A stretch of DNA of 64,000 nucleotides, taken from Chloroflexota bacterium (lineage in GTDB: Bacteria; Chloroflexota; Dehalococcoidia; Tepidiformales; Tepidiformaceae). Below, piece by piece: positions 21,882 to 41,838 of this stretch (position 1 is its first letter; each line of letters opens with the position of its first letter). The notes under the pieces were generated by a model. The model was not told the origin of the DNA, searched no databases, and was given only the letters and a program-made list of their open reading frames with translations. The stretch lies in assembly GCA_016234445.1 (NCBI GenBank), contig JACRBT010000017.1:186001-250000 (forward strand). The letters run 5' to 3'. The position numbers were made by a program, and so were the translations under genes.

Positions 21882-21955
21882 ATACGGCAATGGGGGCGCT
21901 TCCGTGCCCGCGGGCATTCAAGCACAGGGCGCCCGGCCTGTCCGCGGCGGCCTGT
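21882..21955. repeat. Dispersed intergenic repeat, copy B
   Basis: About 74 bp, roughly 85 percent identical to 18271-18341. It lies 126 bp upstream of the heliorhodopsin gene. The central hairpin changes a G-C pair to G-U, so pairing is retained. Confidence 0.6.
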
Positions 21956-22081
21956 GTGCTGGCCCGTAGAAGGGCGAGTTCCACCGCACGGCCTTGCGCA
22001 CGTTGGGCACGTTGCTCACGATCAGTGCGTCGAGCTCGACCGCTGGGCGCGCGAAGCGCCAGGCACCAGCCAGGGAGACAC

Positions 22082-22852
22082 ATGACAATGGACGCTCGAC
22101 GGACTGACATCCGCTACCAGCGGATCCGCCTCTACAACGTTGCGATGGGAGCCTTGCACCTCGTGCAGGCGCTCGCCATCCTCGCGCTGAGCAACGACTT
22201 CGCCCTCCCGGTCCACGGAACGTTCATGGAAGGCCCGCCGGGCGAGGGGGCCGCGAAGATCCATCACCTGTTCGATTTGCGGATCGGGCCGGCCGTCGCC
22301 TCATTCCTCTTCATCTCGGCCGCGGCCCATACGATCCTTTCGCTCCCCGGCGTGTTCCCGTGGTACCGGAGAAACCTCGAACGGCAGCGAAATGACGCCC
22401 GCTGGATCGAGTATTCGGTGAGTGCATCGGTCATGATCGTCCTCATCGCCATGCTTACGGGCATCGGCGACGTGGCCGCGCTCGTCGCACTTTTCGGCGT
22501 CAACGCCTCGATGATCTTCTTCGGTCTGATGCAGGAACACGCGGAGCGGCCGGGCGAAGGGCGCCTGCTGCCGTTCTGGCTGGGCTGCATTGCCGGCGCC
22601 GTGCCCTGGATCGCCATCTCGATCTACATCGTGGCGCCTGGAGTCGATGCTTCGCCGCCGGCGTTCGTGTACGGCATTTTTGTCTCGCTGTTCGTCTTCT
22701 TCAATGTGTTCGCGCTTAACATGTGGCTCCAGTACCGCCGCATCGGCCCCTGGAGAGACTACCTTTTCGGCGAGTCCGTCTACATCCTGCTCAGCCTGGC
22801 GGCGAAGTCCGCCCTCGCCTGGCAGGTCTTCTTCCCGACTCTCATGGGCTGA
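22082..22852 (+). CDS. Heliorhodopsin
   Basis: 256 residues; the ATG at 22082 or the in-frame ATG at 22088 follows GGGAG. A seven-helix membrane protein of the heliorhodopsin family, which binds retinal with the N-terminus facing the cytoplasm and is not a pump. Helix 3 carries the counter-ion Glu110 in RWIEYSVSASVM, and helix 7 carries the Schiff-base Lys242 in LLSLAAKSALAWQ. Both positions agree with known members. The long A-B loop (HGTFMEGPPGEGAAKIHH) is also typical. No carotenoid cleavage or retinal synthesis gene is in the window. The function in this family is unsettled; signalling or enzyme regulation has been proposed. Confidence 0.93.
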   Translation: MTMDARRTDIRYQRIRLYNVAMGALHLVQALAILALSNDFALPVHGTFMEGPPGEGAAKIHHLFDLRIGPAVASFLFISAAAHTILSLPGVFPWYRRNLERQRNDARWIEYSVSASVMIVLIAMLTGIGDVAALVALFGVNASMIFFGLMQEHAERPGEGRLLPFWLGCIAGAVPWIAISIYIVAPGVDASPPAFVYGIFVSLFVFFNVFALNMWLQYRRIGPWRDYLFGESVYILLSLAAKSALAWQVFFPTLMG

Positions 22853-23021
22853 TTGCCAGGGGAGCTTCGCGGCGAACAAACGCGACTCTGTGACGGCGGC
22901 GCCGGATCGGGCCGAGATCACGGGCACGGACGATATCCATGGCCTCGGCCGCCAGCCGCTTGAACTCCTCGACCATCCCCGGGTGAAACTTGAATCGCGC
23001 GATTCCCTGCAGTTCGGTCAT
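22842..23021 (-). pseudogene. Truncated antibiotic-biosynthesis-monooxygenase-like gene
   Basis: The frame starts well: ATG at 23021 with GGAGG 8 nt upstream, and a first part (MTELQGIARFKFHPG, VEEFKRLAAEAMDIV) matching the N-terminal strand and helix of ABM-type small monooxygenases. After about 37 residues it changes to an arginine-rich tail (GPIRRRRHRVAFVRREAP) and ends at 59 residues, where the family has about 95-105. The stop overlaps the 3' end of the heliorhodopsin gene, as if the gene had been cut by insertion of the neighbour. Confidence 0.6.
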
Positions 23022-23075
23022 GGGTGGTCCTCCAGAGGTGGTGCGGCGCGCTCCGGCGCTGTGCAGCACGCCTCC

Positions 23076-24179
23076 TCACGAAGGTAGCTCCTCGCCGGTA
23101 AGAGTCTTGTACACCGCCATGTAGCGTTCAGATGTCGCGGTGACGACGGCAGGCGGGATAGCGGGGGGCGGATCCCCGTCCTTCCAGTTAGCCGCCATCC
23201 AGTCACGTACAGGTTGCTTGTCGAAGCTTGGCTGGGCGCCGCCTGCGTGGTAGCCATCAACCCGCCAGAACCGGCTGCTATCTGGGGTCAGAGCCTCGTC
23301 GATGAGGATGACCTCGTCATTCCAGATGCCAAATTCAAACTTTGTATCAGCGATGATGATGCCGCGTGCGAGAGCGACCGCATGCGCGTAGATCGCGAGC
23401 GTACGCGTTTTCACGATGTTCGCCGCATCGTCGCCGAGGATGCTCGCAAGTTCTTCGTAGGAGATGTTCTGGTCGTGTCCGACTGCTGCCTTCGTCGAAG
23501 GGGTGAAGATGGGCTCGGGTAGCCGCTCGGACTCCTGGAGGCCCGCAGGCAGTGGGACCCCGCAAATCGCCCCTGTGCGCTGGTAGTCCTTCCAGCCGGA
23601 ACCGGAGATGTAACCACGTGCAATGCACTCGGCGTTGAGACGCTGAGCCTTGCGCACCAGCATGGTGCGACCGAAGTATTTCGCATCCAACTTGAACGGC
23701 ACCAGCGACGCGTTCTCTTCAGTGATCAGCGCGATGAAATGGGTCGGAACGACTTCCTTGATGCGATCGAACCACCAGGCGGAGAGTCGCGTGAGCACCT
23801 CGCCTTTGCGTGGGATACCGGTCGGGAGGGTGACGTCAAGAGCCGAGATCCGGTCGGTGGCGACGATCAGGAGGTTATCGCCCAGGTCGAAGGTGTCTCG
23901 AACCTTGCCCCGCGCCAACCGATTGGGAAGGTCGGTCTCGAGAAGGATTTCAGCCATCGGTTCTCTCCTTGAGGCGAATTCGGCTGCTTCGTTGCGCGAG
24001 GTTACGCCGAGGCGCGAGATCACTTCGCTGACGTGCCACTTCGCCCCCGCCAGGCTGATGCCAAGCGCCCTGGCGATCTCCGGGTTTGTGCGGCCGGCAG
24101 CCACCAGGCGCAACACCTCCTGCTGCCGCGGCGTCAGCCTGCTGGATGCGTCGTCTTGGGGCTGTGCAGTCGCTCCCAT
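23076..24179 (-). CDS. purC: LuxR-type HTH domain fused to SAICAR synthetase (PurC)
   Basis: 367 residues in one open frame. Residues 1-72 form a complete LuxR-type DNA-binding domain (RLTPRQQEVLRLVAAGRTN, then SLAGAKWHVSEVISRLGV). From Met75 the sequence is a full-length phosphoribosylaminoimidazole-succinocarboxamide synthase (LARGKVRDTFDLGDNLLIV, ATDRISALDV, GYISGSGWKDYQ, FEFGIWNDEVILIDE), step 8 of IMP synthesis. Met75 (base 23957) has its own AAGGAGAG site 6 nt upstream, so a 293-residue PurC alone could also be made. The ATG at 24179 has a TATGTT -10 box 6 nt upstream, so the full fusion would come from a leaderless mRNA. No other pur gene is nearby. Confidence 0.85.
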   Translation of the reverse strand: MGATAQPQDDASSRLTPRQQEVLRLVAAGRTNPEIARALGISLAGAKWHVSEVISRLGVTSRNEAAEFASRREPMAEILLETDLPNRLARGKVRDTFDLGDNLLIVATDRISALDVTLPTGIPRKGEVLTRLSAWWFDRIKEVVPTHFIALITEENASLVPFKLDAKYFGRTMLVRKAQRLNAECIARGYISGSGWKDYQRTGAICGVPLPAGLQESERLPEPIFTPSTKAAVGHDQNISYEELASILGDDAANIVKTRTLAIYAHAVALARGIIIADTKFEFGIWNDEVILIDEALTPDSSRFWRVDGYHAGGAQPSFDKQPVRDWMAANWKDGDPPPAIPPAVVTATSERYMAVYKTLTGEELPS

Positions 24180-24185
24180 GCCAAA

Positions 24186-24214
24186 AACATAGCCGACTCC
24201 AAGTGGGCTGTCCC
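24186..24214 (-). promoter_or_regulatory. Promoter of the HTH-purC gene
   Basis: On the minus strand GGGACA (24214-24209) and TATGTT (24191-24186) are separated by 17 nt. The -10 box ends 6 nt before the ATG at 24179, predicting an almost leaderless transcript. Confidence 0.4.
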
Positions 24215-24450
24215 TAGGCTATCGCAACAATGACAGTACGTAGTGTGCCGCTCAGCGCGTTTTCCGTTGCCATCCGGATTTTGATGAGGCCCCGGACTCC
24301 GGGAGCGAACTGCGGCCGTCCGCGTGAGTAGCGCCGGCTCGTCCATGCCCAATACCGTTCCCAGGCATCTCGATGCCATCGAGTGACTGTCTGTGGGTGA
24401 ACGATGACGAGGACCGGGGTCGCCGGCTTCGCCGCGCTCGGGGACGGCAT
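24214..24450 (-). pseudogene. Decayed transposase/integrase fragment
   Basis: The frame reads VLVIVHPQTVTRWHRDAWER, then YWAWTSRRYSRGRPQ and IRMATENALSG. This matches the helix-turn-helix-to-catalytic-core linker of IS3/IS481-type transposases (VTRWHR, WxxxSRRRxGRP, RMxxENPLWG). Only about 60 residues remain, and the DDE catalytic core is absent. It fills most of the 370-bp gap between purC and dnaN and marks an old insertion. Confidence 0.6.
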
Positions 24451-39714: not shown

Positions 39715-41802
39715 CTATCGGGCGACCAGGGGTATCACTACCCGATTTCGAAGCTGCGGCGGTTCGACGAATCGCCAACGATTGTTGGCCATCGAGTACA
39801 CAGGCAGGTCCGTCTGAAAACGACCATCACCGTAACCGCCGAACGACCAGAGTTCCTGGCGATTCGAATCCAGGCCGACGGAGTGGAGGTATCGGACGGA
39901 TGGCAATAATCCTCCGGGCTTCAGCTCCGTCCAGGTGTTCGTCTGGGGACGCCACTCCCAAAGTTCGTTCAACAGATGCGGTGTATCCAAGTCGTTCGAC
40001 TCGACAACTTCCCCGCCGAACAAGAGAAGTCGTCCGCCGACGGGGTCCCATACGACGTCCAATTTGGCGCGGAGACTTGGTTGGGCAGAAGTCTGAGGAA
40101 TGACAGTCCAGTGGTTGGCCGTCGGATCATAGGCCCAGATTTCCTTGTACAGGATCTTCGCGAAGCGTTCGTCCTGACTCCAACCCCCATAGACGAGAAA
40201 GCGGTGCGTGCTCGAGTCCCACGCTCCCGCCGGATACCCGCGTGCGGACGGTTCGGGGCCAGCGGTGACGATCTTGGTCCAGGAGTCTGAGTCAGCTGAA
40301 TAGATCCAGGCATCACCCCACCGGCCCGCAGGGCCGCCCACCCCACCAAAGATGAACAGCCTCCGCGTCGCCGGGTCCCACGCCATTGCGAATTCCATCC
40401 TGCCGGGCGGGAAGGGCCCCGGCCCCGGGAAGGCCAGTCGTTGCCATGTCCCCGTGTCCGTTGAGAAGCGCCAGAGATCCTCGCCCGCCCCGGGCCCCGT
40501 CCCACCGAACATATACATATCTCTTCCGCCCGGGTCCCATACAGCCTGGTGCGCGACTCGAGGCGGCGGAACGACGCCGTCAACTTGCAGTGTCGTGAAG
40601 GAGCCATTGGCCGTCGACAGCCGAACGACCTCGTTTGTCGGACTCGAACCCGAACAACCTCCGAAGAGGAGGAAGCTACCGTCAGATTCGTCGAACACCG
40701 CGCTTCCGCCCTCACGGATGTACGTTCGGCTGGAGTTGGGACCGAGGCCTCGCCGTTTCCACTCCCGGGAGATCGTGCTGTAGGCCCACAGGTCATTCTT
40801 CACGAAGCACTCGCCGATGCCGCCGAAGACCAACAATTGGCTGTGGAGCGGATCCCAGGCGGCGCTCACGCGGTTGGTGTTGGGCGGCGCCACCGTCGGT
40901 TGCGCCCTCGATATCCATGCGTTGTCGTGAGTACTGTAGGCGTGAACCTCGTTTGACCAGCCAGTCTTCGTGGCCAGCCCGCCGAAGACGAGCATTTCGT
41001 GGTGCAGGTCGTCCCAAGCAGCAGCGTGGCGGAGCCGTCCGTCCGGTTCGTCGCCCGTGGGGTCCATCAGCTGCCAGGAGTTACTGCCTGGAGTGTAAGA
41101 CCAGAGCTCAGAGAGGTTCGGCGTGCCTGGTACAAATGCCCATCCGCCGTAGACCAACATCTGCTGTTGATCCGCATCCCAGACTGCGGTGTGGCTTTGC
41201 CGTGGTCCGGGTTTCACCCCGGGAGGATCGAGTTTCGTCCACGTCTTCTGCTTTGGGTCATACGCCCAGAGGTCGCCGAGGACATCCGAAGCCTCGCCGT
41301 TGGCCCCGCCGAACACCAGCATTCTCTGGCTTTCCGAGTCCCAGACAGCGCTATGGTTGGCTCGCGCCGGTGGAGCTAGGCCCTGAGGGATTTGTTGAGT
41401 CCACTGGTTGCCGGAGGGCGAATATGCCCAGAGCTCGTTCGTCAGGCCGTCGGGGAATGCTCGCACACCGCCGAACACGAGCATTTGCGCTGCTTGGGGA
41501 TCCCAAACCGCCGAGTGCTGACTCCGAGGCCCCGGGATAGGCCCGGACGGGCTGAGTTGCGCCCAGTGGTCCGTGTCCGGCCACCAGGACCAAAGATCAT
41601 TCCACTTGGCACCATCGTCTCCCCCGAAAAGCAGCATGCGGCTTCCGGTCGAATCCCACGTTGCGGAATAGTAGAAACGCGCACCCGGGGACGTTGCTGC
41701 CTGGGAGGCTGAAGGCGGCGGGGCGGCAATCCCCGGTCTGCCGGCGAGTGTCGCAAGCGCGAGAGCAACGGATGAGAGTATCAGGACCTTCCAGGTCGCC
41801 AC
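39715..41802 (-). CDS. Secreted Kelch-repeat protein
   Basis: 695 residues from the GTG at 41802, which sits 7 nt after a -10 box. A signal peptide (WKVLILSSVALALATLAGRPGIAA) is followed by about ten Kelch blades of the form HSAVWD...MLVFGG...NELWAYSP, predicting one or more beta-propellers. Such domains mediate protein or glycan contacts outside the cell. The C-terminus is RNRVVIPLVAR, close to the PLV-type tail found on many exported Chloroflexota proteins. AT content is higher than in its neighbours. Confidence 0.82.
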   Translation of the reverse strand: MATWKVLILSSVALALATLAGRPGIAAPPPSASQAATSPGARFYYSATWDSTGSRMLLFGGDDGAKWNDLWSWWPDTDHWAQLSPSGPIPGPRSQHSAVWDPQAAQMLVFGGVRAFPDGLTNELWAYSPSGNQWTQQIPQGLAPPARANHSAVWDSESQRMLVFGGANGEASDVLGDLWAYDPKQKTWTKLDPPGVKPGPRQSHTAVWDADQQQMLVYGGWAFVPGTPNLSELWSYTPGSNSWQLMDPTGDEPDGRLRHAAAWDDLHHEMLVFGGLATKTGWSNEVHAYSTHDNAWISRAQPTVAPPNTNRVSAAWDPLHSQLLVFGGIGECFVKNDLWAYSTISREWKRRGLGPNSSRTYIREGGSAVFDESDGSFLLFGGCSGSSPTNEVVRLSTANGSFTTLQVDGVVPPPRVAHQAVWDPGGRDMYMFGGTGPGAGEDLWRFSTDTGTWQRLAFPGPGPFPPGRMEFAMAWDPATRRLFIFGGVGGPAGRWGDAWIYSADSDSWTKIVTAGPEPSARGYPAGAWDSSTHRFLVYGGWSQDERFAKILYKEIWAYDPTANHWTVIPQTSAQPSLRAKLDVVWDPVGGRLLLFGGEVVESNDLDTPHLLNELWEWRPQTNTWTELKPGGLLPSVRYLHSVGLDSNRQELWSFGGYGDGRFQTDLPVYSMANNRWRFVEPPQLRNRVVIPLVAR

Positions 41803-41809
41803 GGCGCGG

Positions 41810-41838
41810 ACGTTACAGACTGGGCACCACGGACGCAA
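41810..41838 (-). promoter_or_regulatory. Promoter of the Kelch-repeat gene
   Basis: On the minus strand TTGCGT (41838-41833) and TAACGT (41815-41810) are 17 nt apart, and the -10 box ends 7 nt before the GTG. Confidence 0.4.

Follow-up and report, generated by a model that had tools for sequence, protein, structure and literature searches.

Repeated PurC fusions in Chloroflexota hint at an undescribed enzyme that may control its own gene

Can an enzyme of purine synthesis carry the DNA-binding domain that controls its own gene? The question is raised by a single open frame in the window, as we call the whole 64,000-nucleotide stretch of Chloroflexota DNA that was analysed here. The original prediction held that this frame joins a LuxR-type HTH domain to a complete PurC, that translation starts at the ATG at 24179, and that an internal start at Met75 could also release free PurC.

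The fusion gene, its setting and its distribution

The frame at 23076..24179 (minus strand) runs for 367 codons without a stop and places HTH and PurC in one polypeptide. Codons 1-74 form the HTH module (23958..24179, minus strand), in which Pfam identifies GerE (PF00196) at residues 14-69 (E 8e-14, 51.4 bits against a curated cut-off of 23.5) and residues 66-74 are a variable linker. In the monomer AF2 model this module has helices at 17-27, 32-39, 50-56 and 62-70, with a pLDDT of about 72. The PurC (SAICAR synthetase) domain follows as codons 75-367 (23076..23957, minus strand); residues 88-331 match Pfam SAICAR_synt (E 6e-66, above the curated cut-off), and against the NCBIfam equivalog PRK13961 this part scores 374.7 bits, above the cut-off of 251. 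The central claim, that a LuxR-type HTH and a complete PurC share a single frame, is therefore upheld. We can rule out a frameshift or assembly artefact because the same 367-codon frame recurs at an unrelated location in G022 (MAG JACPOQ01), the genome of a Chloroflexi bacterium from groundwater, with 92% identity over all 367 residues and zero indels. The HTH-PurC fusion is thus real.

The fusion is a second purC in the window genome. An ordinary PurC, 77% identical to the PurC part of the fusion, is also encoded in this genome on another contig, where its gene lies between purB plus a membrane-protein gene on one side and purS on the other. The fused gene stands alone, downstream of dnaN and near recF, deep in a 288-kb contig (the names purB, purS, dnaN and recF were assigned to these neighbours by reading translations). 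An ordinary PurC is encoded in G022 too, within a purB-purC-purS cluster. Immediately after the window fusion lies a short ORF (22842-23069, minus strand) without a Pfam match, which appears to be the truncated start of a protein, presumably a small monooxygenase-like one, and which is perhaps a scar of the insertion. A heliorhodopsin gene is found at 21890-22852 (plus strand; PF18761, E 1.5e-101); since the domain starts only at residue 79, translation probably begins later than listed.

We searched 38 genomes of the window's family, plus other Chloroflexota genomes, all of them metagenome-assembled (some confirmed, others probably). Conservation of the fusion in close relatives, which had also been proposed as a check, holds for one relative, G022, and fails for the family at large, the LuxR-PurC fusion being present in only 2 of the 38 family genomes. 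BLASTN revealed a block common to the window and G022 (23075..24437, minus strand) that extends from 24437 to the stop codon with 91% identity over 1367 columns and has unrelated flanks; no further gene was common to the two loci within 12.7 kb. In our tree the fused PurCs are mutual sisters, placed close to the ordinary PurC from the lineage to which the window belongs, and sisterhood of the G022 fusion and G022's own purC was rejected (AU p = 0.006). Since the flanks are unrelated and the tree places the G022 fusion apart from that genome's own purC, we reject vertical inheritance, and the comparison indicates that the fusion gene has moved horizontally. The block also contains a decayed piece of a transposase with an rve-like integrase core (24247..24414, minus strand). 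Its identity to an annotated integrase core protein is 49% (E 1e-7), Pfam gives no match for it, and it is found in the same place in G022, with stops. This decayed transposase is a plausible vehicle of the transfer. An origin from a virus or mobile element was rejected, because the viral contigs searched held no locus related to the fusion and the PurCs of phages and plasmids are only remotely related and show no HTH match. Other long matches, in G577 and G017 and at L052 and L053, proved to be ordinary PurCs whose frame merely reads through upstream sequence.

Origin of the HTH module and its promoter-like motif

The closest relatives of the fusion's HTH are the N-terminal HTHs of membrane LuxR proteins, with 71-87% identity; across the family the figure is 54-87%. 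In these relatives a hydrophobic segment, probably transmembrane, lies about 20-28 residues past the HTH and is followed by a large extracytoplasmic domain. The window fusion has neither of these and consists of the HTH, a nine-residue linker and PurC. Several members of this HTH-TM family occur in the window genome, and one relative has up to about 30 HTH matches. The loci of the expansion (L003, L005-L007, L061, L062, L076-L101 and L193-L215) are lineage-specific, and most loci of the family share a promoter motif at fixed spacing, with starts that are probably leaderless.

By reading the DNA ahead of HTH-family genes we derived the motif ATMGVSTAGKG. When followed by N30-34 and RTG it has 24 matches in six genomes. 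The spacer is 32 or 33 in 17 of them; 15 of the 17 start a LuxR-HTH gene, and the window fusion, with a spacer of 32, is among the 15. Its promoter/operator-like site, GCGATAGCCTAGGGACA (24209..24225, minus strand), lies 46 nt before the ATG and agrees with 17 HTH-family promoters in both sequence and spacing. The site is kept in G022 as ATAGCCTAAGGGAC, with one base inserted. The PWM score at the fusion ties for the top among 127,966 window positions. We discounted the other top site, at 39749, as a chance copy since it lies in a coding frame; it sits near the 3' end of a gene (39715-41838, minus strand) for a large secreted protein with putative kelch-like repeats, beside groEL. Among the matches in the six genomes, no purine gene was found behind the motif. 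Autoregulation would be the simplest reading of the motif, given that nearly all true matches precede HTH genes; alternatively, it may be a sigma-factor site.

The TATGTT box noted in the original prediction (24186..24191, minus strand) does end 6 nt short of ATG 24179. It is a -10-like box, the family promoters have boxes at a similar position, and its counterpart in G022 reads TACATT; it lies where the -10 box of a leaderless transcript would be expected. Because most family promoters have such a box just before the start codon, making leaderless transcripts probable, we take ATG 24179 to be the real start. Third-position GC also shifts at this ATG, from 0.59 upstream to 0.78 in the HTH in the same frame. 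With the family motif at its exact spacing, the claim that an in-frame and predicted DNA-binding HTH-PurC starts here has gained support.

We suggest, at a probability that we would place barely above even, that the fusion is a SAICAR synthetase which binds DNA and is autoregulated, comparable to the trigger enzymes BirA, PutA and NadR. The promoter/operator and HTH of a membrane-LuxR gene would have arrived as one module and been joined in frame to a copy of purC, so that PurC took the place of the membrane helix and sensor. Translation would begin at ATG 24179 on a probably leaderless mRNA, the HTH would recognise the TAGGGA motif in the promoter of its own gene, and the occupancy or oligomerisation of PurC (AIR/CAIR, ATP, Asp, SAICAR) would modulate that binding.

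Parallel MerR-PurC fusions

In-frame fusions of a MerR-type HTH to PurC are present in three genomes from another family of the class (G342, G315 and G142) and in two from another class of Chloroflexota (G594 and G656). Pfam detects both domains at each of the five loci: L183:8668-9945 (plus strand), L185:591-1853 (minus), L184:7642-8940 (plus), L190:7107-8312 (plus) and L191:5598-6857 (minus). These five fusions in other Chloroflexota are new here, and as N-terminal extensions were sought only in the top-listed long-frame PurC matches, their count is a minimum.

A single origin of the MerR-PurCs of G142, G315 and G342 was rejected, as their PurCs do not group together as a clade (AU p = 1.3e-5), and the sequences mark the MerR-PurC fusions as independent events. 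A congener of G142, G303, has purB-purC without MerR. Between G594 and G656 the MerR modules are 95% identical (dS 0.18) and the PurCs 58% identical, with the same junction; the pattern at L190 and L191 is as if a MerR module had been exchanged between purC genes. The MerR-PurC is the only PurC that we found in G142 (MAG completeness 92%) and G315 (76%). In both it comes after guaA, purD and purB, and in G142 purS then follows. For the G315/G342 pair, the MerR domain has a dN of 0.10 and a dS of 1.0 (dN/dS about 0.1), from which we infer that the HTH has been maintained while fused. Possible contamination of G342 (5%) means that its MerR-PurC could be a relative's, which leaves the dN/dS argument unaffected.

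Just upstream of all five fusions, dyads resembling CTTG(C/A)...TGACGC-N-GCGTCA lie between the -35 and -10 boxes. MerR operators are built in this way, and G315 also has such a dyad ahead of a MerR gene that lacks PurC. The MerR-PurCs and the window fusion would appear to share a theme, namely an autoregulated promoter-plus-HTH module placed ahead of purC.

Alternative readings and known systems

A self-controlling enzyme is one of several ways to read the window fusion. A new and differently regulated promoter may have been selected for the second PurC, with the HTH carried along as a passenger in a protein that is only an enzyme; we consider this unlikely, though deserving of real weight. 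Comparison of the window and G022 copies bears directly on it. PurC shows 26 synonymous changes at 216 sites and 20 non-synonymous changes at 663 sites (pS 0.120, pN 0.030, p = 2e-6), which is clear purifying selection, whereas the constraint on the HTH (codons 2-65) is weak and not significant alone (pN 0.043, pS 0.098, p = 0.16). The nine linker codons before Met75 vary freely (pN 0.29, pS 0.31), the Met75 site is still there, and the upstream motif and its spacing are kept, all of which would suit capture of a promoter. However, the HTH core has no stop or indel in either copy and is more conserved than the DNA upstream of ATG 24179, where four indels (of 18, 3, 3 and 1 nt) and 36 substitutions at 237 positions separate the copies, compared with 11 substitutions at 195 positions in codons 1-65 (p = 0.0017). 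A passenger would also be hard to reconcile with the strong constraint on the HTH in the parallel MerR-PurCs.

Less probable again, in our view, is that the PurC part is a non-catalytic ligand sensor (for AIR/CAIR, a nucleotide or SAICAR) in a pure regulator, synthesis being performed by the ordinary PurC that both genomes also possess. In its favour is a deletion of two residues (a YN or NY from YNY) near residue 263, which is present in both LuxR-PurCs and was found in 0 of 80 other aligned PurCs. In the AlphaFold model (PurC pLDDT about 97, range 92-98) it breaks a helix that adjoins the catalytic strand and is continuous, as residues 174-197, in the model of the ordinary PurC; the deletion may therefore mark a functional change, with altered activity. 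On the other side, the fusion retains 60 of the 61 columns that are constant in 77 ordinary PurCs, the missing one being a Tyr within the deletion for which an adjacent Tyr may substitute. By Foldseek, the PurC model matches yeast SAICAR synthase best among PDB entries, with a TM-score (by target length) of 0.88. Since the invariant residues are nearly all kept and the model is confident, but the helix is broken, we judge retention of SAICAR synthetase activity as likely, not certain. For G142 and G315, where no other PurC was found, the MerR-PurC has to be the enzyme.

The idea that the gene yields two products, the whole regulator when translated from 24179 and a free PurC when translated from Met75, is compatible with an autoregulated enzyme, and we think it very improbable. 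Met75 is indeed encoded by ATG 23957, with the ribosome site AAGGAGAG in front of it (23963..23970, minus strand), and the AAGGA of this site is retained in G022. The G022 site is nonetheless the weaker AAGGACGG, the nine residues before Met75 are unconstrained, and AAGGAGAG is probably a relic of the ribosome site of the captured purC, which would explain its presence; a free PurC is possible and finds no support in the comparison. An assembly chimera, contamination or recent junk is scarcely credible, for although the genomes are (probably all) metagenome-assembled and the G022 copy is 1.6 kb from a contig end, two genomes show the same junction with different flanks and 6% divergence under selection on PurC, and the window copy is deep within its contig, beside dnaN and recF.

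We return to the autoregulated, DNA-binding SAICAR synthetase. It is favoured by the motif spacing, by the shared frame in G022 with selection on PurC, and by the retained invariant columns, as well as by independent MerR-PurCs behind dyads, the low dN/dS of their MerR domain and their standing as sole PurC in G142 and G315. Weighing against it are the non-significant test on the HTH, the presence in 2 of 38 genomes, the helix-breaking deletion and the lack of purine genes behind the motif in the six genomes. We offer more tentatively, at somewhat less than even probability, the broader view that Chloroflexota have repeatedly made PurC the effector domain of autoregulated factors, such that a purine intermediate or PurC turnover would be read at promoters by a convergent and undescribed class of proteins. 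Our literature search agreed with the original prediction in finding no described HTH-PurC (subscription journals and bioRxiv preprints were mostly outside its reach). That prediction did not mention the status of the gene as a second purC, its horizontal transfer, the descent of HTH and promoter from membrane regulators, or the parallel MerR-PurCs.

The fusion can be compared with several known systems. It shares with the membrane LuxR family the N-terminal HTH and the same promoter motif and spacing, but has a soluble PurC in place of the transmembrane and outer domains. With PurC of the yeast and mycobacterial branch (1obg, 2cnq, 6yvq) it shares the full domain, the NCBIfam equivalog and the fold; unlike an ordinary PurC it has an N-terminal HTH, the two-residue deletion and a location outside the purine cluster. 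The MerR-PurCs resemble MerR-TipAS-type proteins, the MerR gene of G315 being 79% identical over the MerR part with the same operator; they carry PurC instead of the other C-terminal effector domain, which in the G315 gene we take to be TipAS.

Purine metabolism is also tied to transcription by the PurR proteins, in a manner similar to the role proposed for the fusion. As described in a recent review (PMC10912719), these respond to hypoxanthine/guanine, PRPP or ppGpp by means of unrelated domains, none of those treated there is joined to a pathway enzyme, and the passages searched mention no PurC with a DNA-binding domain. Known purine regulators use dedicated domains that sense end products or PRPP/ppGpp; if our reading is true, an enzyme equipped with its own operator-binding domain would link transcription directly to the flux through step 7. 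The reading predicts that the PurC fusion binds a short known DNA site in a ligand-dependent manner.

The nearest parallel is with the trigger enzymes, for which a definition and a list (BirA, PutA, NadR) are given in PMC8249747, citing Commichau and Stulke 2008. Like the fusion, these join a metabolic enzyme to a DNA-binding domain at the N-terminus of one polypeptide, and the fusion would probably regulate its own promoter as well, through its predicted DNA binding and putative ligand control. Unlike BirA, PutA and NadR, the enzyme here is PurC of de novo purine synthesis and the HTH is of LuxR or MerR type. Several independent fusions, each with its own operator, would provide a natural experiment on how trigger enzymes originate, by the route in which an enzyme gene acquires a promoter-plus-HTH module at its front and its product replaces the sensor.
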